A stretch of 64,000 nt of DNA from positions 1 to 64,000 of the forward strand of contig JAJZIJ010000002.1 of NCBI GenBank assembly GCA_021810625.1, written 5' to 3'. The notes below the pieces were generated by a model, which saw nothing but the letters and a program-made list of their open reading frames with translations, ran no database searches and was not told where the DNA came from. The position numbers were made by a program, and so were the translations under genes. Shown here piece by piece: positions 17,484 through 29,215 of this stretch. Each line of letters opens with the position of its first letter. Positions within the stretch are counted from its first letter, which is position 1. The DNA comes from Acidobacteriota bacterium. Its GTDB lineage: Bacteria; Acidobacteriota; Terriglobia; Terriglobales; Acidobacteriaceae.

Positions 17484-18665
17484 CTAAATACGTTCAAAAA
17501 TCCCCGCAGCGCCCATGCCGCCGCCTACGCACATGGTCACCATGCCGTAGCGAACCTTGCGCCGCCGCATCTCATGCAGCAGCGTCGCCGTCAACTTGGC
17601 TCCGGTGCATCCCAAAGGATGACCGAGAGCAATCGCGCCACCATTGACGTTGACGATCTCTGGATTGCAGCCAACCTGCTGCATCACCGCCAACGACTGC
17701 GCGGCAAATGCCTCGTTCAATTCAATCAGGCCAAGATCGCTCAGCTTCAAACCCGCCAGCTTCAGCGCCTTGGGAATCGCAAAGAGCGGGCCAAGGCCCA
17801 TCTCCTCTGGCGCGCATCCAGCGGTGGCGAAGGCAACAAAACGCGCCAACGGAGCCAGCCCCAGCGCCTGCGCTCGTTCGGCGGACACAACCACCACTGC
17901 CGCCGCGCCATCCGAAGTCTGCGAAGAGTTCCCCGCCGTCACCGTCCCTTTGGCGTGAAAGGCGGGCTTTAATGCGCTCAGCGCGTCAAGTGACGTGTCA
18001 GCACGCGGCCCTTCATCCACGCGAAACTCCGTCGAACGCATTACCAGCTTGCTTCCCTTTTCTGGAGCCGTCGAATTCGTAACCGTGACTGGTACAATTT
18101 CTTCCTCGAATGCCTTCGCTTGGATCGCCGCCAGCGCCTTGCGATGGCTTTGCAGGGAAAATTCATCTGCCTGCTGCCGCGTGATGGAAAATTTCTGCGC
18201 CAATCGCTCCGCCGTCAGACCCATTGAAAGATAGGTTCCCGGCGCGTGCTCCATCAGCCAGGGATTGGCGGAAACTTTATTGCCACCCATCGGCACCATG
18301 CTCATGCTCTCCGTGCCACCAGCAATGATGACCTCTGCTCCGCCGCCGCGAATACGATCCGCCGCCAGCGCAATGGACTGCAAGCCCGACGAGCAAAAAC
18401 GATTGACCGTCATGGCTGAGGACTCAATCGGCAACCCGCAGCGCAGCGCGGCAATGCGCGCCACGTTCATGCCCTGCTCGGCCTCTGGCATCGCGCAGCC
18501 TAGAATCACATCCTCAATCTCCGCCCGGTCAAGCTGCGGAAGCTGCGCCAGCGCGCCTTCCATCGCCGCCGCCGCCAGATCATCGGGCCGCATCGCCCGC
18601 AGGGTTCCCCTGGGAGCCTTGCCTACGGCTGTCCGCATGGCGCTTGCGATCACTACGTCCCGCAT
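17484..18665 (-). CDS. fadA: Acetyl-CoA acyltransferase (3-ketoacyl-CoA thiolase)
   Basis: Last step of beta-oxidation: cleaves 3-ketoacyl-CoA with CoA to acetyl-CoA and a shortened acyl-CoA. The 393-residue protein has the nucleophile in NRFCSSGLQ at C91, the histidine in NGGAIALGHPLGCTGA, and the second cysteine in CVGGGMGAAG. The ATG at 18665 lies just behind AAGGGGGAG; the TTG at 18680 that would extend it lies within the ribosome-site region. It follows the FadN-type gene with a gap of about 25 bp and precedes fadE by about 130 bp. Confidence 0.95.
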   Translation of the reverse strand: MRDVVIASAMRTAVGKAPRGTLRAMRPDDLAAAAMEGALAQLPQLDRAEIEDVILGCAMPEAEQGMNVARIAALRCGLPIESSAMTVNRFCSSGLQSIALAADRIRGGGAEVIIAGGTESMSMVPMGGNKVSANPWLMEHAPGTYLSMGLTAERLAQKFSITRQQADEFSLQSHRKALAAIQAKAFEEEIVPVTVTNSTAPEKGSKLVMRSTEFRVDEGPRADTSLDALSALKPAFHAKGTVTAGNSSQTSDGAAAVVVVSAERAQALGLAPLARFVAFATAGCAPEEMGLGPLFAIPKALKLAGLKLSDLGLIELNEAFAAQSLAVMQQVGCNPEIVNVNGGAIALGHPLGCTGAKLTATLLHEMRRRKVRYGMVTMCVGGGMGAAGIFERI

Positions 18666-18690
18666 ATCTCCCCCTTGCAACAGAATGCAA

Positions 18691-21147
18691 CTAATTCCGC
18701 AATGGCTTGCCCGTCTTCAACGTAAACGCGATTCGTTCCTGCGTCTTTTTTTCTCCACACAGGGATAAAAACGCCTCACGCTCCAAATCCAGAAGATATT
18801 GTTCGCTCACCAACGTTCCCGGCGTAATGTTTCCGCCGCAGAGAATGTGCGCCACATGGCTGGCGACTTTTACGTCGTGGTCGCTGATGTACTCGCCCTG
18901 CCTCATTAGATGGATGCCCAGCTTCAACGTGGAGAGGATATTCTCTCCCGGCGCAGCAATATCGTTGCGCGCAATCGGAGGCGCATATCCAGCATCGGCC
19001 AGCGCCAGCGCCCGCGCTTTGGCATCGAGCAACAGTCGGTCGCGGTGCATGGTCGTTCCATCGCGCTCGCTCAAAAATCCCAGCGTGTGCGCTTCGGTAA
19101 CGGAAGTGGAGACCTTGGCCATCGCAATCGTCTCAAATGCCTTCTTCATCGCCTCCATCATCTCGACGGATTCGCCGCGACCATCAGGTCGAATGCTCTG
19201 CGCTGCGTTGACGGCGCGAATCGCCATCTCCTTGCACCCGCCGCCACCCGGAACCAGCCCCACTCCCGTCTCCACCAGTCCCATGTAGAGTTCCGCGTGT
19301 GCCTGTCGCTGCGCCGCGTGCAGGTTGATCTCTGTGCCGCCGCCCAGACACATGCCATACGGCGCGGCCACGACAGGGCGAGGGCAGAATTTAATGGCAG
19401 CGGTCATCGCCTGAAACGAGCGAATTTCAAGATCAACGTCGTCCCATTCCTCCTCCTGCATGGCCAGTAACAATTGCATAATGTTCGCGCCCACGGAAAA
19501 ATTCGTCGCGTCGCCGCCGATGACGAACGCCTCAAAACTGGCCACCGCATCGCTGTCGGAACGCAAGGCCTGCGTAACAAAGCGAACAATATCGCCGCCA
19601 ATGGCGTTCATCTTGGAGTGAAATTCGATGACCGCCACGCCATCACCCAGATCGACCAACGATGCGCCCGGATTTTTCTTCACCACGCCGCGCGCGCGCT
19701 GGATGACCGCAACCGTAGTCACGCCTGCGGGCTGCTCGACAGGACGATACGCGCCGCTGCTCACATCAAAGAAGAGTCGACCCGATGGCACGCTGGCATC
19801 CTCTTTGTACCAATGCGTGTGTCCGGCTGCGAGAAGTTTTTCGACATTCGCCGCAATCGGCTTGCCCTCGGCGCGCATCTTCTCCACCGTCTCGCGGACA
19901 CCAGCGGCATCCCACATCGCAAACGGGCCAAGCTCCCAGTTGAAGCCTGCTTGCATGGCGCGGTCGATGCTCACAATGTCGTCGGCAATCTCTGGAATGC
20001 GGTTGGCCGCGTAAGTCCAAAGCTCGGTCAGCATGGGCCAGTAAAAGGCCGCAGCCTTGTCTTTACGCGGATCGCCCGCGAGCAACAGACGCAGACGCTC
20101 GGCTGTCTGCTCGGCATTTTTTGCCATCTCCAACGCGGGAAGTTTTGGTCGCGCTGCGACGTGATACTCCAGCGTCTTCCAGTCAAGCGCCAGCCGAGTT
20201 TCCCTGCCCTCGGCATCCTTTTCTTTTTTGTAGAGTCCCTGCTTCGTCTTGTCACCCAGCCATTTGCGATCCAGCAATGCCTGGAGGAACGCGGGCCATT
20301 GCACGTCGGCGCGTTCATCGCCGATAGCTTTCGACTGCGCGGCAAAGTTCCGCGCAACGTGGCCCAGCACGTCGATGCCCACCATGTCCGCCAGTCGAAA
20401 GGTGCCCGTCTTCGGCCAGCCAATCGCGGAGCCAGTCAGCGCGTCCACTTCCTCGATGGACAAATTTTGTTCCTGCATCAGGCGCGCCGTGTTCAGAATG
20501 GAAAACGTCCCAATGCGATTGGCGATGAAATTCGGCGTGTCTTTGGCGCGAACTACGGTCTTGCCCAGCCGCTTGTCGGCAAACTCCGCAATGCGGGCCA
20601 TCAACGCGGGATCGGCCTCCGGCGTGGGAATAATCTCCAGCAAACGCATGTAGCGCGGCGGATTGAAAAAGTGCGTACCGAACCAGCGACGACGAAACTC
20701 CGGCGGCATCTGCGCGGCAATGCTGGCGACGGGAAGCCCGCTGGTGTTGGTGGTTAGAATGGCATCGGCGCGGCAGAATGGAGCGATTTTTTGCAGGAGG
20801 GCCTGCTTGATTGCCAGGTCTTCGGCGACCACTTCGATCACCCAATCGCAATCGCGCAGCATCTCCAGATGATCGTCGAAATTTCCGGGCACGATTCTCG
20901 TGGCGAAGGCAGCATCAAAGAACGCCGCAGGCTTGGCCTTCTTCAGGCCGTCAAGCGCCGCCGTCACAATTTTGTTGCGCTGGGCCGTATCGCCAGCCGT
21001 CGTGTTGGGCGGAATGATGTCCAGCAGCACCACGGCCACGCCCGCATTGGCCAGATGCGCGGCAATGCGCGACCCCATCGTACCCGCGCCTAGCACCGCC
21101 GCTTTTCGCAGCGGACGTTGCTGCATTGAACTCGGCGACAACTCCAT
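18691..21147 (-). CDS. fadN: 3-hydroxyacyl-CoA dehydrogenase / enoyl-CoA hydratase fusion (FadN type)
   Basis: Carries the two middle steps of beta-oxidation on one chain. The dehydrogenase half comes first (NAD-binding VLGAGTMGSRIAAHL, near residues 18-32 from the ATG at 21147), then two C-terminal dehydrogenase helical domains. The enoyl-CoA hydratase half is at the C-terminus, with GGDATNFSVGANI, PRPVVAAPYGMCLGGGTEI and GLVPGGGG. This order is opposite to E. coli FadB and matches Bacillus subtilis FadN, as does the gene order fadN-fadA-fadE. A run of G (GGGGGG) six bases before the ATG at 21147 supports this start over the GTG at 21162. Confidence 0.92.
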   Translation of the reverse strand: MELSPSSMQQRPLRKAAVLGAGTMGSRIAAHLANAGVAVVLLDIIPPNTTAGDTAQRNKIVTAALDGLKKAKPAAFFDAAFATRIVPGNFDDHLEMLRDCDWVIEVVAEDLAIKQALLQKIAPFCRADAILTTNTSGLPVASIAAQMPPEFRRRWFGTHFFNPPRYMRLLEIIPTPEADPALMARIAEFADKRLGKTVVRAKDTPNFIANRIGTFSILNTARLMQEQNLSIEEVDALTGSAIGWPKTGTFRLADMVGIDVLGHVARNFAAQSKAIGDERADVQWPAFLQALLDRKWLGDKTKQGLYKKEKDAEGRETRLALDWKTLEYHVAARPKLPALEMAKNAEQTAERLRLLLAGDPRKDKAAAFYWPMLTELWTYAANRIPEIADDIVSIDRAMQAGFNWELGPFAMWDAAGVRETVEKMRAEGKPIAANVEKLLAAGHTHWYKEDASVPSGRLFFDVSSGAYRPVEQPAGVTTVAVIQRARGVVKKNPGASLVDLGDGVAVIEFHSKMNAIGGDIVRFVTQALRSDSDAVASFEAFVIGGDATNFSVGANIMQLLLAMQEEEWDDVDLEIRSFQAMTAAIKFCPRPVVAAPYGMCLGGGTEINLHAAQRQAHAELYMGLVETGVGLVPGGGGCKEMAIRAVNAAQSIRPDGRGESVEMMEAMKKAFETIAMAKVSTSVTEAHTLGFLSERDGTTMHRDRLLLDAKARALALADAGYAPPIARNDIAAPGENILSTLKLGIHLMRQGEYISDHDVKVASHVAHILCGGNITPGTLVSEQYLLDLEREAFLSLCGEKKTQERIAFTLKTGKPLRN

Positions 21148-21162
21148 ACCATCCCCCCACAC

Positions 21163-21530
21163 GTCAAATTCCGAGTGGCAAGTGCAAAGTCGTACTGTGG
21201 GGAACTCTACTGAACCACTCCGCGCCGGTCAAGCGAACCGCAACGAGTCGAAAAACATGCGATTATTGTTGAATGAAAAAAGCAACCGCGTGTCACTCAC
21301 CGATTTTGCATCAACTGACCTGAATTTCGGCGGCGCATTGCCTAAGGATACATATTGCTCGTGCATGCTACGGCGTTTGTGAGGACTGATCTTCTTCTAC
21401 TTCTCAGTTCGGCCAAGAACCTCCTAATTGCGTTCTCCTGAACAAGTGCAGACCACGAAACTCAGATTAAGTCATTCCTTCGTTGCGGCAACTCCTTTAG
21501 AATAGGTCTGTAGCATTCTGAGGAACGGCA
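21163..21530. other. Gene-free stretch between fadN and the Shedu-like gene
   Basis: About 370 bases between two divergent genes. No open frame with a credible start, no inverted repeat longer than a few bases and no match to the repeat families elsewhere in the window was seen. It should contain the fadN operon promoter and the promoter of the downstream gene; TGAGGA at 21518-21523 is the latter's ribosome site. Confidence 0.5.
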
Positions 21531-22703
21531 ATGGATCGAATTGAGACACAATCCACTTCGAGTAAAACCGCGACGGCTTCCGACATAGTGCTACGAGAAG
21601 GATCGCAATCGAGACTCCTCTTTCGTCCTGAGATCGTAGATAACACTGGCAAACCGGAAGCTGCGGTACGAGGCCGATTCCTTTACCAGAAAAAAAAACG
21701 TAGTGACCAATGGATCGAGTTCGACCGATTGCCCCTCACCTCAATCAAGGTCGATGAAGGTTACCAGCTCGAAATCCATTCGAGCGAACTGCACACACTG
21801 CTCATCAATCTACGTCAGATATATAAACTCGCGAACGCTTACGGTGTTCCTCAGGGCAAGAAAAGTTTTCTTGAGGTAAGCGGAGCACTGGCCGACCTCT
21901 TGGCGCTTGCTGGTTCAGAGCTTCAGGCGTTCTTTACCTCGAAGAGTGATGATGCGATCAGACTCTTCAGACTGCTGTTGAACTGGATATATAAGCAGCC
22001 CAACATAGAAGTATTTGAAGGAGTGTCGGAGCTGCTGGAACTGAACACGGTTGTGGGTTTGGCAAACCTGAAGACCTTCCTCAAGGAATGGAAGGCAAGC
22101 AGTGACGTGAGCAGGGAAGAATTCTGGCAAACGCTCTTCGCAAAGAATGCGTTTGTACTCTCGCAGCTTTTTGCCTACCCGGTGATTCTCATCAACGACA
22201 AAGCCTACCTTGGAGGAAAGGGCCTGACGAATACAGGTGGTCACATTGTTGATTTTTTGTGCAAACTAGAATCCACTGGTGCTGCCGCTATGGTCGAGAT
22301 AAAGACACCTAAGACCCAGCTTCTCGGCTCGGTGTATCGCGGCGGCGTTTACCCCATCTCTAGTGACTTAGCAGGGGCCATATCGCAAGCCCTTAAATAT
22401 CGGAGTTCTCTCATGGAAAACATCCAGAATCTTCAGCGAGAACAGCCCACCCTTATAGCTTCCGAGCCGTATTGCGTAGTCGTTGCAGGCAACTGCGCCG
22501 AACTCAATTCTTCAGAAAAAAAGGCCTCTTTTGAGAGGTTTCGCGAACGATTAAATGGTGTTCGGATATTAACCTTTGATGAGGTCTATAAGCGTATTGA
22601 AGGATTGCTCGCGATCTTTACAGACTCCTCCGGGATCGATCCTCGCAAGTCGGCCAGCGTTCAGCTATCTGCCCACACAGGTATCTCGGCTGATGATCGG
22701 TAG
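21531..22703 (+). CDS. Shedu-like anti-phage nuclease (DUF4263 / SduA family)
   Basis: The C-terminal domain reads as the DUF4263 nuclease of Shedu defence: FWQTLFAKNAFVLSQLF, then GGHIVDFLC, AAMVEIKTPKTQLL, YRGGVYPISSDLAGAISQALKYR. The PD-(D/E)xK-type residues would be D241, E256 and K258. Residues 1-190 form a variable N-terminal part probably used for recognition or oligomerisation. Length 390 fits the family. It is a single-gene locus without other defence genes beside it. Codon use is more AT-rich than its neighbours, and it sits between a gene-free stretch and a palindromic repeat block, both consistent with acquisition by transfer. Start fixed by TGAGGA seven bases upstream. Confidence 0.85.
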   Translation: MDRIETQSTSSKTATASDIVLREGSQSRLLFRPEIVDNTGKPEAAVRGRFLYQKKKRSDQWIEFDRLPLTSIKVDEGYQLEIHSSELHTLLINLRQIYKLANAYGVPQGKKSFLEVSGALADLLALAGSELQAFFTSKSDDAIRLFRLLLNWIYKQPNIEVFEGVSELLELNTVVGLANLKTFLKEWKASSDVSREEFWQTLFAKNAFVLSQLFAYPVILINDKAYLGGKGLTNTGGHIVDFLCKLESTGAAAMVEIKTPKTQLLGSVYRGGVYPISSDLAGAISQALKYRSSLMENIQNLQREQPTLIASEPYCVVVAGNCAELNSSEKKASFERFRERLNGVRILTFDEVYKRIEGLLAIFTDSSGIDPRKSASVQLSAHTGISADDR

Positions 22704-22719
22704 TGGGGCAATTTGAAAG

Positions 22720-22892
22720 GCTGCCCCTCAGGGGCTGAAGCCCAAAGAGATTTTGTAGGGATACCGGACGGGCTAAAGCCCGTCCCCTTCAAGCTAAGAA
22801 ATCTCTGAACATATCCGGCTTTGAAGGGGCGGGACTTTAGTCCCGCCGTGAGCACCTAAAATGAGAGCGGGCTTTAGCCCCTGAGGGACAGC
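22720..22892. repeat. Nested palindromic repeat block (BIME-like)
   Basis: Outer arms 22720-22743 and 22869-22892 are inverted copies (22 of 24 bases pair). Inside are two perfect hairpins: GGACGGGC-TAAA-GCCCGTCC at 22766-22785 and GGCGGGACT-TT-AGTCCCGCC at 22828-22847. Shorter inverted pairs also occur, AGAGATTT with AAATCTCT and CCCCTTCAAGC with GCTTTGAAGGGG. There is no open frame. The block fills most of the 320-bp gap between the Shedu-like gene and the M16 operon. Confidence 0.9.
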
Positions 22893-23022
22893 AGTGAGAC
22901 TGAATCAGTCTCTCCCCGATCTCAAATTGACCCACTACCCAGCCTCCAATTGACTTCCCCTTCCAGAGCGGTTAGCTTCAAATTTTTAGAAGCAACGCAC
23001 CTGCCACGAGGATTCCATCGCG

Positions 23023-24657
23023 ATGAACACTCTGTACCGCCGCATTTTTCTCTCTGTACTGCTCGCCGCGCTCTGCACGCTTAGCTTGGCCCACGCGCAG
23101 GATGTAGCCAGCTTCGAGAAGCGCGTCACCGTCAAAGTTCTGCCCAATGGCTTGACGCTGATCGTCTGCCAGCGCCCGGAGGCTCCCGTCTTCAGCTACT
23201 TCACCATCGTGAATGCGGGCAGCGCGCAAGACCCGACAGGCGAATCCGGCCTGGCGCACATGTTTGAGCATCTCGCCTTCAAAGGCACGCAGACCATTGG
23301 CACGACCAATTATCCGGCAGAAAAAATTGCGCTGGCCAAAGTGGAGACGGCATACGCCGCCTACGATGCCGAGTTTCGCAAGCGCGTGGGGCGTGACCCG
23401 GCCAAGCTGAAGGCGCTGCACGCGCAGTTTGACGCAGCCGTTGCCGCCGCGCAGAAATACGTCGTCCCAAACCAGTTCACCGAAATTGCCGAGCAGAATG
23501 GCGCGACCGGAATCAACGCCAGCACCTCGCTCGACGACACGCAGTATTTCTGGAGCATGCCCATCAATCGGCTGCAACTCTGGGCCTATATGGAGAGCGA
23601 CCGCATCGCGCATCCCGTGCCGCGTGAGTTCTACAAGGAGCGCAGCGTGGTGATGGAGGAGCGACGGATGCGCACCGACTCCAACCCCATTGGCTATATG
23701 GTGGAGCAGTTTCTCGCTGCGGCTTACGTGGCCCATCCTTACGGACGGCCCGGCCTGGGCTGGGAGTCGGAGATCAGCCAAGTCAGCGCGACCGAAGCTG
23801 CTGCCTTCCACAAAAAATATTATGTTCCGGCCAACATTGTCATCACGGTTGTCGGCGATATTGATACAAAAACCGCGCTGCCCATGCTGGAGAAATACTT
23901 TGGCTCGATTCCGGCTGGCCCAAGACCGCTGCCGCTGGCGACCGTCGAGCCGCCGCAGCGCGCAGAGCGCTCCGTAACGCTCCGCGAACCGACGCAGCCT
24001 TTTTACATTGAGGGCTACCATCGGCCCGATTATCTGGACAAAGACGATGCCGTCTATGATGCCATCAGCGATATTTTGTCGAATGGACGCACCTCCCGGC
24101 TCTATCGCAGCCTGGTGCGCGATCAAAAAATTGCCGCAGAGTCGGCGGGTTTCAGCGGCTTTCCCGGAGAAAAATATCCCAATCTGTTTGCGTTCTACGC
24201 TGTGCCCACGCCGGGTCACACGCCGCAGCAGATGCGCGTCGCCATCCATAAAGAAATTGATCGGCTCAAAACGCAGGATGTTACCGATGACGAGTTGGCC
24301 ATGTTCAAAACCCGCGCGCGCGTGGAGATTTTGCATAGCCTGGACGACAATCAAGGGCTGGCCGAGGAACTTGGCACCTATCAACTGCGCTATGGAGACT
24401 GGCAGATGCTCTTCAACCAACTCGACAAGATCAACGCCGTCAGCAAGGCTGACATTCGCCGCGTTGCCAATCAGATTTTTAAGGCCAGCAATCGCACCTA
24501 CGCCATGATTGAGTTCCAACCTCCAACAGCGCCACCGCCTTTGCCCGCCTCGCAGCCAGCCGGGACTTCGCAATCCACAACCAAGGCTCCGCAAGCCATT
24601 ACCAAGGCTCCGCAAGCCATTACCAAGGCTTCGCAAGCCAATGGAGGAGCGCGCTAA
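23023..24657 (+). CDS. Secreted M16 zinc peptidase (catalytic subunit)
   Basis: Insulinase/pitrilysin-family peptidase. Signal peptide at about 1-26, then the inverted zinc motif HMFEH at 79-83, with the third ligand probably in KERSVVMEERRMR. Between them lies an unusually long helical insert (about 60 residues, EKIALAKVETAYAAYDAEFRKR and on). A second, non-catalytic M16 lobe follows. The C-terminal tail is P/A/Q-rich and includes three tandem heptads of the type TKAPQAI, encoded by a 21-base repeat at about 24583-24643. The stop overlaps the start of the next gene (TAATG), so the two are translationally coupled. Confidence 0.93.
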   Translation: MNTLYRRIFLSVLLAALCTLSLAHAQDVASFEKRVTVKVLPNGLTLIVCQRPEAPVFSYFTIVNAGSAQDPTGESGLAHMFEHLAFKGTQTIGTTNYPAEKIALAKVETAYAAYDAEFRKRVGRDPAKLKALHAQFDAAVAAAQKYVVPNQFTEIAEQNGATGINASTSLDDTQYFWSMPINRLQLWAYMESDRIAHPVPREFYKERSVVMEERRMRTDSNPIGYMVEQFLAAAYVAHPYGRPGLGWESEISQVSATEAAAFHKKYYVPANIVITVVGDIDTKTALPMLEKYFGSIPAGPRPLPLATVEPPQRAERSVTLREPTQPFYIEGYHRPDYLDKDDAVYDAISDILSNGRTSRLYRSLVRDQKIAAESAGFSGFPGEKYPNLFAFYAVPTPGHTPQQMRVAIHKEIDRLKTQDVTDDELAMFKTRARVEILHSLDDNQGLAEELGTYQLRYGDWQMLFNQLDKINAVSKADIRRVANQIFKASNRTYAMIEFQPPTAPPPLPASQPAGTSQSTTKAPQAITKAPQAITKASQANGGAR

Positions 24658-26174
24658 TGTCGATTCGCTCATACTCCTTCGCCTTCGCAACCACGTTGTT
24701 TGCCGGAGTCACGCTCATCGGACTTTCGTTGACTACCGCTTCCGCGCAAACGGCCTCGCCTGCGCCCGCGCACGCCGCGCAACCACCCCAGCCCCAGCAA
24801 GCTCAGCCCTGGAAGAAGATTCCCATTCCGCCGCTGCCAGCCTTTCATCCAGAGCAGCCCCGGCGTATTGTGCTCGGCAACGGCATGACCATCTTTCTGG
24901 AAGAAGATCACGAGCTGCCCTTCATCGAAGGCTTTGTTCTGCTGCGCGGTGGGTCGAGCGACGAGCCAGCGGCGAAGGCGGGCCTGATCGACCTGTATAG
25001 CGAGGCGTGGCGCACCAGCGGCACCGCGACCATGACTGGCGACCGGATGGACGACATTCTCGAAGCAAAGGCCGCAAAGATCGAGACCGACGGCGACGAC
25101 GAATCGACCTCGCTGTCGTGGTCGTGCCTCAAAGGAGACTTCGATTCGGTCTTCAGCATGGCCGTCGATCTGCTGCTGCATCCGCAATTCCGCGCCGACA
25201 AGCTCCAGCTTGCCCAGCAGCAGGAGGAGACCGGAATTATTCGCCGCAATGACAGCGCCAGTCGAATCGCGGAGCGTGAGGCGCTCAAGCTCGCCTACGG
25301 AAAAAATAATCCTTATGCGCGCCTGCCGGAGTTCTCCACCGTGGAAGCCGTCACGCTGGCCGATCTGAAAGATTGGCATCAACGAACGGCAACGCCCAAC
25401 AATATGATTGTCGGCATCACCGGCGACTTCAACTCCGCAGAGATGGAGGCCAAGCTGCGCGCCGCCTTCGCTTCCCTGCCGCGTGGCGCAGCCTTTGCCT
25501 CCGCCAAGATCGCCTTCCCCGGCCCCACGCCCGGCGTGTACTTCGCGCAAAAAAGCGATGTGAACCAAAGCAATGTCTGGCTGGTGGGTCTGGGTACAGA
25601 GCGCAGCAATCCAGACTACTACGCGCTCAGCGTGATGAATGAAATCTTCAGTGGCGGCTTTGGCTCGCGGCTCTTTCAGTCCGTGCGGACGCGGCTCGGC
25701 CTTGCCTACTCCGTCTCCGGCTCTTATGGCGCGGACTATGACCATCCCGGAATTTTCTATGTGACTGCGGGAACAAAAAGCGCGAGCACGGTGCAGGCAA
25801 CCCAGGCCATGCTGCAACAAGTCCGCGATTTGAAGACCGATCCGCCAACGGCAAGCGAACTACGCAAAGCAAAAGACGAGTTACTCAACTCCTACATCTT
25901 CCACTACGATTCCAAGGCAAAAATTCTGCGTGAGCAGGTCAATCTGGCCTTTTATAACTATCCACTGGATTTCATCGAGAAGTATCGCGCTGGCATTGAG
26001 AAGGTCACGGCTGCTGATGTAACCCGCGTCGCGCAGAAATATGTTGATGCCAACAAGCTGGCGATTCTTGTGGTTGGAAACGGAAAAGAATTCGGCACGC
26101 CCTTATCCAAGCTGGGGCCGGTGCAGTCGCTCGACATTACCATTCCCCTGCCCGCGCAGATGCAGGGGAAATGA
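24657..26174 (+). CDS. Secreted M16-family protein lacking the zinc motif (non-catalytic partner)
   Basis: Signal peptide at about 1-30, a proline/glutamine-rich linker to about 65, then the two M16 lobes. Where the catalytic subunit has HMFEH, this protein has LIDLYSEAW at 110-118, so zinc binding is lost. In two-subunit M16 enzymes one chain holds the metal and the other supplies substrate contacts, including an R/Y pair near the C-terminus, for which GFGSRLFQSVRTRLGLAYSVSG is the likely region. Its ATG overlaps the upstream TAA. The remnant at 240-377 is a piece of a close paralogue. Confidence 0.93.
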   Translation: MSIRSYSFAFATTLFAGVTLIGLSLTTASAQTASPAPAHAAQPPQPQQAQPWKKIPIPPLPAFHPEQPRRIVLGNGMTIFLEEDHELPFIEGFVLLRGGSSDEPAAKAGLIDLYSEAWRTSGTATMTGDRMDDILEAKAAKIETDGDDESTSLSWSCLKGDFDSVFSMAVDLLLHPQFRADKLQLAQQQEETGIIRRNDSASRIAEREALKLAYGKNNPYARLPEFSTVEAVTLADLKDWHQRTATPNNMIVGITGDFNSAEMEAKLRAAFASLPRGAAFASAKIAFPGPTPGVYFAQKSDVNQSNVWLVGLGTERSNPDYYALSVMNEIFSGGFGSRLFQSVRTRLGLAYSVSGSYGADYDHPGIFYVTAGTKSASTVQATQAMLQQVRDLKTDPPTASELRKAKDELLNSYIFHYDSKAKILREQVNLAFYNYPLDFIEKYRAGIEKVTAADVTRVAQKYVDANKLAILVVGNGKEFGTPLSKLGPVQSLDITIPLPAQMQGK

Positions 26175-26179
26175 TGGTT

Positions 26180-26220
26180 CTGTAGATGGTCAAGAGGGTG
26201 TACCTCTTTCGAGGGAAGAT
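26180..26220. repeat. 41-bp dispersed repeat, copy 1
   Basis: Starts ctgtagatggtcaagagg and ends cgagggaagat. It matches 38041-38081 at 37 of 41 bases. An inner AAGAGG...CCTCTT can pair. It lies directly after the M16 operon. Confidence 0.85.
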
Positions 26221-26372
26221 TGGATGGGCCTCGGAGAGCGGGCGGGACAAAAGGCGACGCGATAACCCCGCATCTTGGAAATAGATACAACCTATTTCCA
26301 CTTTCGCGCCTCCCCTACGACTGTTCTTTCTTCTCTTTATGAGAGGAACAACGTATTGAAAGATCACAGGTG

Positions 26373-26405
26373 CCCCATTCAAGCCTTGTTTTGGCTTGAG
26401 TGGGG
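26373..26405. repeat. CAAGCC hairpin repeat, copy 1
   Basis: CCCCATTCAAGCC and GGCTTGAGTGGGG flank a seven-base loop; all 13 positions pair, one as a T-G wobble. It lies between the convergent M16 operon and trxA and may serve as a shared transcription stop, although no T-tract follows. Confidence 0.85.
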
Positions 26406-26455
26406 GAGAAGAATCTGAGGCACTCGGCACCGGGCCAGATTGGTCCAGAAATTTC

Positions 26456-26788
26456 TTAAACGACCACTTTGTTCAACGATTTGCTGATCGTATCCTTTGG
26501 GACAAAGCCCACGATCTGCTCTGCGACCTTGCCGCCTTTGAAGATCAGCAGCGCGGGAATGCCACGGATGCCATAGCGCATCGGTGTGGCGGCATTGCTG
26601 TCCACGTCCATCTTCATCACCTTGAGCTTGCCCTGATACTCCTGGGCAATCTCATCCACAATGGGAGCCAGCGCGCGACACGGGCCACACCACGCCGCCC
26701 AGAAATCCACCAGAACGGGCTGGGCCGACTGCAAAACCTCTGCCTCAAATGTTGCATCGCTTACTTCGTGTACTGCCAGTCCTGCCAT
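26456..26788 (-). CDS. trxA: Thioredoxin
   Basis: Small dithiol oxidoreductase with active site WCGPC at 33-37, preceded by the classic VLVDFWAAWCGPC, and containing the cis-proline loop GIRGIPALLIFKGG. Length 110 is typical. It has no signal peptide, so it is cytoplasmic, and could serve as electron donor to MsrB. Single gene; the AGGAG just upstream supports the ATG at 26788. Confidence 0.96.
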   Translation of the reverse strand: MAGLAVHEVSDATFEAEVLQSAQPVLVDFWAAWCGPCRALAPIVDEIAQEYQGKLKVMKMDVDSNAATPMRYGIRGIPALLIFKGGKVAEQIVGFVPKDTISKSLNKVVV

Positions 26789-26915
26789 GAAAACTCCTCC
26801 TGGGAAAATTGGTGAGGGTTGAAGATGCGCCCTTCCCTGCTACGACTCTCCAGCATACTAGATGCGGCGCATGAACGATTGGTCGCAGAAAACGCGAACC
26901 CTGCGCGCCCTTTGT

Positions 26916-27839
26916 CTATACCGCCGCGCATTTCTCAAATTCGCACTCCATGATCTCCACCGTATCCGCATCCGCGACCCGTTCACGAATGACGGCCTGC
27001 AACTGAGCGCGATCAGCCACGCTCTCCACGACCACGAGAACGGCTGGGCCTGCGCCGCTCAAGGCCACGCCAAGGACGCCGTGGCTGCCAGCCAGCGGAG
27101 TAAGGATGGAGAGTAGCGGACACATCTCCGCGCGATAAGGCTGATGCAAACGATCCTGCATCGCCACTTGCAGCAGGTCGCCGCGTTCCTGCGCAAAGGC
27201 GGCCACCAGCAGCGAGGCGCATTGCACGTTGGCTCGCGCATCCTGGCGCGAATACATCTCCGGCAACACCCGGCGGGAGACCGAGGTCGCCAATGGTTTG
27301 GACGGCAGCACAATCACCACCGACCATGCCGATGGAATTGGAAATTGAACAGCGTGGACTTGCATGGACGCGCCCTCGCCGACCATTGCGGCAACGGTCA
27401 TGCCGCCCAGCCAACACGCGGCGGCATTGTCGGGATGTCCCTCCAGCACACAGGCGGTGTTCAGAATTTGATCGCGGCTCCATCCCAGTTCGCCGAAGTG
27501 TACCGCCAGCGCAATCCCCGCCAGCCGCGCCGCTGCCGAGGAGCCACAGCCCATTCCAAAGGGAATTTCATTATGAACCTTCAAATGCAGCGGCAGAACT
27601 TTGCGCCCATTCTCCTGCAACGTCTGCGAATAAATTTGCAACAGCAGATTGTTTTCAATCTGGCTGCAAGCCTCCGCATTGCGGCCCGTGGCGTCAATGG
27701 AAAAGCTGTCCGCCTGCGTTGCCGTTATATCCAAATGCAGATTCAACGCAATCGCGGCGGTATCAAAGGCCGGCCCAAGATTCGCCGAGGTTGCAGGCAG
27801 GCGCAGATGCAGGCTCCGTTTGCTCATCCGTTCGCTCAT
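26916..27839 (-). CDS. thrB: Homoserine kinase
   Basis: GHMP-family kinase that phosphorylates L-homoserine in threonine synthesis. The phosphate-binding glycine-rich loop is PFGMGCGSSAAA at 93-104; PATSANLGPAFDT at 15-27 and the C-terminal VALSGAGPAVLVVV are family features. Length 307 is normal. Its ATG overlaps the stop of thrC by four bases (ATGA), so the two are translationally coupled. Confidence 0.95.
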   Translation of the reverse strand: MSERMSKRSLHLRLPATSANLGPAFDTAAIALNLHLDITATQADSFSIDATGRNAEACSQIENNLLLQIYSQTLQENGRKVLPLHLKVHNEIPFGMGCGSSAAARLAGIALAVHFGELGWSRDQILNTACVLEGHPDNAAACWLGGMTVAAMVGEGASMQVHAVQFPIPSAWSVVIVLPSKPLATSVSRRVLPEMYSRQDARANVQCASLLVAAFAQERGDLLQVAMQDRLHQPYRAEMCPLLSILTPLAGSHGVLGVALSGAGPAVLVVVESVADRAQLQAVIRERVADADTVEIMECEFEKCAAV

Positions 27840-29215
27840 TTGCGCTCCGTCGCTTCCAGTTGGCGCAGCACGGCATCGGAGCTTGGCTCCAACAACACCG
27901 GCGGCTTGGCCAATTTCCGCAGCGATTCTTTCTCTGATGCGTTCAGCGCCGCAGTTTCCGTTTCTGTCAGTAATGTCCCGCGATGGAAATCAATCGTGTA
28001 CTCCGGGTCTTTCAACGTGTGCCCGGTCAGCACCAGCACCACAGACTCCTCGCGCCGCACTTTGCCCTGCGCGCAGAGCTTCTTCAACCCGGCATAGGTC
28101 ACGGCGGAAGCTGGCTCACAGCCGATCCCTTCGGCTCCGATCTCCGCTTTGGCGATGGCAATCTCCTGCTCGCTCACCTGCTCGCAATATCCGCCCGTTT
28201 CCTGAATCGCGCGCGCAGTCTTGCGCCACGATGCAGGATTGCCGATGCGAATCGCCGTGGCCCGCGTATTGGCCTGCACCGGCTCCAGCCGCTCGCCGTT
28301 GTATTTCAGCAGGCTGGTGTAGAGAGGATTTGCGCCCTCGGCCTGGATCACGCTGATACGTGGGATGCGATCCGTCAGGCCCAGCGCGCGCATCTCGTGG
28401 AATCCCTTGCCCAGCGCTGCGCCATTGGCCAGATTTCCTCCCGGAACAATGATGTGGTCGGGAACCTGCCAGCCCATCTGCTCGGCAATCTCCAGCGCAG
28501 GCGTCTTTTGGCCCTCCAGCCGATAGGGGTTGACCGAGTTCAACAGATAGACCGGAGCGCGCTCAACAATCTCCGCCAGCACACGCACGCAGCCGTCGAA
28601 GTCTGTTTTCAACTGGCAGGTCAACGCGCCATAATCAACCGACTGCGCCAGCTTGCCCCAGGCCACCTTGCCATCGGGAATCAGCACCAGCGCGCGCATT
28701 CCTGCGCGAGCCGCATACGCGGCCATTGCGGCGGAGGTGTTTCCCGTGGACGCGCACGCCACCCAGGGAAATTTTTTCTCATGCGCGACAGAAAGCGCTG
28801 CGGTCATGCCCGTGTCTTTGAATGATCCGGTGGGATTCATCCCTTGATGTTTGGCATGGAGGCTATCCAACCCCACGCGCTGAGCGCATTGCGGCATCGC
28901 ATACAGCGGGGTGTTTCCCTCGCGCAGCGTCACGGCGCGCTCTGGATCGTCGAGAAACGGAAGCAGCTCGCGAAAGCGCCATACACCGCTCTGATTCAGT
29001 ATTGCGGCGGAGAGCCTGCGCTCGGCCCACAAGGCGCGCAGCGCGGGCGCATTGGGCCGTTGCGATCCATCTCCCTCGCCGTCCAACTCCCAGCTCGGAT
29101 AGATGACCTCGAATAATTCTTTGCATTGGAGACAGCGAAACCCAGCGGACATACCCTCTCCGCTGGTGACGATACCGCAGCCAATACAACGCAACTGATG
29201 CAATTTTTGTGCCAT
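27836..29215 (-). CDS. thrC: Threonine synthase
   Basis: PLP enzyme that converts O-phosphohomoserine to threonine. From the ATG at 29215 it is 459 residues. The N-terminus carries a zinc-ribbon-like pair C10-x-x-C13 and C28-x-x-C31, seen in one branch of the family, before the PLP fold with GMNPTGSFKDTGMT (Schiff-base lysine) and ACASTGNTSAAMAAYA. The open frame continues upstream to 29533, but those 106 residues resemble no threonine synthase, and a purine-rich GAAAGAAG lies just ahead of 29215. First gene of thrC-thrB. Confidence 0.94.
   Translation of the reverse strand: MAQKLHQLRCIGCGIVTSGEGMSAGFRCLQCKELFEVIYPSWELDGEGDGSQRPNAPALRALWAERRLSAAILNQSGVWRFRELLPFLDDPERAVTLREGNTPLYAMPQCAQRVGLDSLHAKHQGMNPTGSFKDTGMTAALSVAHEKKFPWVACASTGNTSAAMAAYAARAGMRALVLIPDGKVAWGKLAQSVDYGALTCQLKTDFDGCVRVLAEIVERAPVYLLNSVNPYRLEGQKTPALEIAEQMGWQVPDHIIVPGGNLANGAALGKGFHEMRALGLTDRIPRISVIQAEGANPLYTSLLKYNGERLEPVQANTRATAIRIGNPASWRKTARAIQETGGYCEQVSEQEIAIAKAEIGAEGIGCEPASAVTYAGLKKLCAQGKVRREESVVLVLTGHTLKDPEYTIDFHRGTLLTETETAALNASEKESLRKLAKPPVLLEPSSDAVLRQLEATERK

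Follow-up and report, generated by a model that had tools for sequence, protein, structure and literature searches.

A stand-alone B. cereus-type Shedu nuclease between a hydroxyacyl-CoA dehydrogenase and an M16 peptidase gene of an Acidobacteriaceae member, most likely acquired by recent transfer between genera

The SduA protein of B. cereus, reportedly the subject of Gu et al. in 2025, is said to be switched by its N-terminal domain and to cut near DNA ends with a 3' overhang. In E. coli, SduA is a homotetramer in which an N-terminal clamp binds DNA ends and the PD-(D/E)XK domain introduces nicks a fixed distance away, as laid out in the review PMC12904381, which also mentions toxicity when the protein is expressed heterologously. 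PMC12137116 describes, for V. cholerae VcSduA, a C-terminal DUF4263 nuclease in common with the protein studied here, a GHKL ATPase as N-terminal domain where our protein has SduA_N, and a nuclease mutant that lost phage protection; it portrays Shedu proteins in general as a common nuclease domain beneath diverse N-terminal domains. A literature search on Shedu in acidobacteria returned no paper whose title or abstract names either. The window analysed here, a whole stretch of 64,000 nucleotides from contig JAJZIJ010000002.1 of an Acidobacteriota bacterium, adds one B. cereus-type Shedu nuclease from this phylum, and the history of its locus, which is clean and readable, is more informative than the protein.

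The gene sduA (21531..22703, + strand, ATG start) encodes a Shedu nuclease of 390 aa with matches in Pfam, PADLOC and PDB. A sequence-only reading had taken the product for a 390-residue DUF4263 protein with D241, E256 and K258, and the profile search by which this was to be judged bears it out: SduA_C (PF14082, formerly DUF4263) is found at 1.1e-20 (74.8 bits against a curated cut-off of 27; Pfam), and its PD-(D/E)XK nuclease domain (residues 194-352, 22110..22586, + strand; Pfam, alignments and Foldseek) holds exactly these three as catalytic residues, invariant in 9/9 and 15/15 rows of two SduA alignments. The same reading had left the N-terminal ~190 residues unassigned, which does not hold: SduA_N (PF21407) occupies residues 8-109 (21552..21857, + strand) with its full profile (1-102 of 102) at 6.3e-30 (103.8 bits against a cut-off of 27; Pfam), and a PDB sequence search aligns residues 2-362 with the solved B. 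cereus SduA 8ti8 at 3.5e-69. With SduA_N present, the N-terminal half is not unassigned and implies no new sensor; a novel N-terminal sensor was rejected, SduA_N being a described domain common to B. cereus SduA. The PADLOC SduA model spans residues 2-365 at 1e-109, and NCBIfam gave no match to the protein at E up to 1. On its two domains (SduA_N + SduA_C) the protein is classed as a B. cereus-type, stand-alone Shedu nuclease and an ordinary member of the family.

Searched with the single window SduA, IMG/VR gave no relative; searched with alignment A3, which consists of nine hand-picked sequences and leaves out cut, broken or less complete family-genome matches, it gave 17 loci with matched stretches in the nuclease half (residue 149 onward). 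Twelve of these 17 were taken into alignment A4, leaving out L067, in which no open frame was found, and L078-L081, with 26-29% identity; also omitted was L043 from Nocardia, which nearly duplicates L042. The N-terminal part of the two Nocardia SduA_C proteins (L042:5470-6570 and L043:5470-6591) looks HNH-like by eye, and for the L042 protein Pfam gives only SduA_C at 0.01.

The predicted structure agrees with this assignment in the nuclease core. The AlphaFold model was built from a 15-row alignment in which just two rows cover the N-terminal half; pLDDT is >=70 for 180/390 residues, its confident part (~residues 171-360) being the nuclease domain only, and <50 nearly throughout residues 1-166. 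Since confidence is confined to ~171-360, the N-terminal assignment rests on sequence. Foldseek ranks the B. cereus Shedu structures 8ti9 and 8ti8 first, followed by E. coli SduA 8ps4 and 8ps5, and all nine matches at E <=0.001 are chains of these four entries. The match to 8ti9 chain B (E 9.9e-15, TM 0.87 by target) indicates the same nuclease core fold, and B. cereus SduA, with the same two domains, has 30-35% identity to the model in the structural alignments; E. coli SduA is matched at E 1.7e-9 and 1.9e-9 with 16-17% identity.

The gene had also been described as standing alone amid housekeeping genes, and so it does. All eight neighbours (15.5-29.5 kb) are housekeeping/metabolic or peptidase genes, namely an acyl-CoA dehydrogenase, a thiolase, a 3-hydroxyacyl-CoA dehydrogenase, two M16 peptidases, a thioredoxin, a GHMP kinase and a PALP enzyme, so that sduA qualifies as a single-gene system. 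PADLOC found no defence partner among them, just weak E1-E2 matches of 31-35 residues in the hydroxyacyl-CoA dehydrogenase gene (hadh), and the only PF14082 match in the own genome (2.45 Mb, 74 contigs) is sduA itself. Rfam gave nothing at gathering scores over 18000-28000, and the output of a promoter and terminator scan was at chance level.

Among the relatives, the closest SduA (best of three loci in a scan with one genome per species) is that of Edaphobacter lichenicola M8UP30 (L041), which NCBI carries under the name Tunturiibacter lichenicola (Acidobacteriaceae). It combines the same SduA_N + SduA_C architecture with 88% identity over 384 aligned residues, and the ~160 bp upstream resemble the window as well. 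At the DNA level, the similarity amounts to 89.5% identity over 21371..22652, i.e. ~160 bp upstream plus codons 1-374, and no DNA similarity to E. lichenicola was found outside this stretch. Simple Nei-Gojobori counts give dS 0.26 and dN 0.045 over 373 codons of sduA, against dS 2.79 (near saturation; 68% identity) for hadh in the same genome pair, a roughly tenfold contrast between genes, among which synonymous rates vary; for the window and the congener G001, hadh dS is 0.40, i.e. larger than the cross-genus value for sduA. The AT-rich codon use remarked on earlier is seen in a GC3 of 0.536, compared with 0.681-0.715 in the eight neighbouring genes. An acquisition, as the sequence-only reading had suspected, is most likely, and on these identities and synonymous distances we regard a recent transfer between genera, of a ~1.3-kb unit, as the most likely origin of sduA here.

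The distribution of the gene is patchy. Only 12/398 family genomes, the own one included, match the window SduA at E <=0.001, and the congener G001 is not among them. Five relatives besides the own genome resemble it at 51-90% identity: G296, whose sequence is that of the E. lichenicola locus, and G357 carry full-length copies; those of G312 and G013 are cut off by contig ends; and that of G263 (L048:1405-1650, - strand) is broken after ~50 codons inside a contig, with ~160 bp upstream still resembling the window. For G263, dS is 0.26 over 50 codons. It is 1.58 for G013 (68 codons), 1.79 for G312 (215 codons) and saturated for G357, by which these three copies are old splits; a recent transfer is therefore supported by E. 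lichenicola and the 50-codon piece of G263 only. Near the E. lichenicola sduA lie genes for an IS481-type integrase, an ArdC N-domain protein, a RepB primase, an SSB and a DndB-like protein, and these plasmid-type genes on a contig of 137,157 bp suggest that the E. lichenicola copy sits on a plasmid or integrated element.

In the window, sduA lies between the divergent genes hadh (18691..21162, - strand) and M16a, an M16 peptidase gene (23023..24657, + strand). Across the M16a loci of 16 relatives, hadh adjoins M16a in five (G001, G017, G019, G035 and G020), and in the other 11 it was not in the stretch examined, often just a 1.5 kb flank. All five readable sites lack sduA, which, together with its atypical GC3, speaks against a gene of normal composition conserved at this site in all relatives. 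The hadh/M16a gap measures at most ~0.37 kb in G017, G019, G035 and G020, which belong to four other genera, and is thus too short for such cargo. The congener G001 has a gap of ~1.4 kb between flanks that are 76% and 88% identical to those of the window, and this gap carries a gene for a 314-aa DUF4238 protein (L031:371-1315, - strand; 5.5e-15) that is non-homologous to sduA.

The comparison with G001 also locates the 3' end of the incoming DNA. The window becomes similar to G001 again from 22647 on (46 bp, 78%), and a local alignment lengthens this match to 58 bp with a score of 28, the best of 2000 dinucleotide shuffles scoring 15 and E. lichenicola's own 3' end scoring 7. The E. lichenicola match ends at 22652 and the G001 match starts at 22647, which is most simply explained by a fusion of the incoming unit with resident DNA within 22647..22652, where AAGTCG is common to the window, E. 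lichenicola and G001. With the fusion placed there, the last 16 codons of sduA (22653..22700, + strand) would most simply be former intergenic DNA; their counterpart in G001 is intergenic, downstream of the DUF4238 gene. A close copy, an occupied sister site and short gaps without cargo in other genera are all available, so that the 3' boundary of the incoming DNA can be fixed to 6 bp. Upstream, the shared stretch starts at 21371 (E. lichenicola) or 21362 (G263), and the ~120 bp of 21244-21370 match neither G001 nor E. lichenicola in these comparisons.

The same data could be read as vertical inheritance: the ancestor of the genus would have had sduA at this site, G001 would have lost it as DUF4238 came, and E. 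lichenicola would have received it from this lineage, the 58-bp match in G001 being what is left of the 3' end of sduA. G001 does hold DNA like the last codons of the window sduA, and the transfer could have run from the window lineage, which is a possible donor. However, that the E. lichenicola match should end where the G001 match starts, as 22652 and 22647 do, follows from a fusion but not from a remnant; sduA is richer in AT than the genes around it; its dS across genera is below that of hadh between congeners; and G263 has a nearly identical upstream edge. We consider vertical inheritance unlikely. Our preferred reading, a stand-alone B. cereus-type Shedu that was recently acquired as a ~1.3-kb unit in the hadh/M16 gap of an Acidobacteriaceae member, is one that we hold with considerable confidence.

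Directly downstream lies a palindromic repeat insert (22700..22938) whose 17-bp ends form an imperfect inverted repeat (22700-22716 and, on the - strand, 22922-22938; one mismatch). Its left end, a putative terminal repeat, contains the TAG stop of sduA (22701-22703), and apart from this stop codon the repeat copy lies outside genes. The sequence-only reading had pointed to a BIME-like block as a hint of acquisition; the block is real, with inverted pairs present over ~22715-22900, but as a mark of acquisition it was rejected, being a genome-dispersed repeat. Querying the own genome with 22715-22900 gave 53 match rows (these include the query place, its inverted match and some places on both strands, with 40 of 86 first-look candidates scored), which is in line with a dispersed REP/BIME-type repeat of dozens of copies. 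In G001, which lacks the palindromic block, the flanking matches are 7 bp apart, compared with 251 bp in the window; given this repeat-free congener site, the block was most likely inserted separately. The own genome has two Y1_Tnp transposase matches, and no further copy of the 17-bp ends (<=3 mismatches) was found in the window or the compared loci, from which five site-overlapping loci were excluded.

With sduA in the window and DUF4238 in G001, non-homologous single genes fill one gap in two congeners. It is tempting to see in the gap a slot for alternating anti-phage genes, with DUF4238 itself anti-phage and sduA travelling bare, without mobility genes of its own, though we would put forward this combination only tentatively and think it rather doubtful as a whole. 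The swap makes DUF4238 a candidate phage-defence family, as a modest lead, and the G001 gene a possible alternative defence cargo. Relatives of this gene occur in 5/398 family genomes, G001 included, and PADLOC gave no match to the G001 protein.

With regard to function, the window SduA may be expected to act like B. cereus SduA because it has the B. cereus architecture. By analogy, its most likely function is that of a stand-alone anti-phage nuclease whose N-terminal domain would control cleavage close to the ends of linear DNA, a mechanism established on other SduA proteins. As in the family, it would form a homo-oligomer, presumably a tetramer, and its N-terminal domain might hold it inactive or target it. 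It would then recognise the linear ends of incoming phage DNA, and the PD-(D/E)XK core would nick or cut near those ends, such that phage DNA is attacked and the circular chromosome spared. The 16-residue tail out of flank DNA, which distinguishes the window protein from B. cereus SduA, would be an accident of insertion and is probably dispensable; the C-terminal tail of E. lichenicola SduA differs from that of the window protein from codon 375 on.

A nuclease of the same fold might also serve host DNA repair or act against plasmids instead of phages. Cutting at DNA ends need not be limited to phage DNA, and relatives of the window SduA occur in 127 plasmid records (one of them over >=80% of the protein), with none in 50,697 phage records (tblastn). 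Against such a role stand the patchy presence in 12/398 genomes, the transfer, and the full-length match to the PADLOC SduA model, and we judge it slightly less probable even than vertical inheritance. That the chimeric tail marks a decaying, non-functional sduA seems highly improbable: although the tail from codon 375 on does not come from sduA and the G263 relative is broken after 50 codons, the full-length PADLOC model stops at residue 365, the other sequences of the nine-row alignment end near this residue or bear unrelated tails, and pairwise dN/dS between the window and E. lichenicola SduA is 0.17 over 372 codons, an average over both branches with which very recent decay would be compatible. 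We take sduA to be a real and probably functional gene.

Among the relatives, a gene for a protein of 330-333 aa lies in divergent orientation next to SduA genes of two different types, in G357 and G033 (L046:2783-3784 and L037:8112-9104). The two copies are 76% identical and have paired cysteines near the C-terminus, and Pfam gives no hit at 0.01. Relatives of this protein were found in 7/300 family genomes, in three of which (G033, G142 and G321) the match is nearly full length. The gene may belong to defence islands or be a neighbour of SduA; in G142 no SduA appears among the ORFs listed for the locus with 1.5 kb on either side, and in G321 the gene adjoins a reverse-transcriptase gene.
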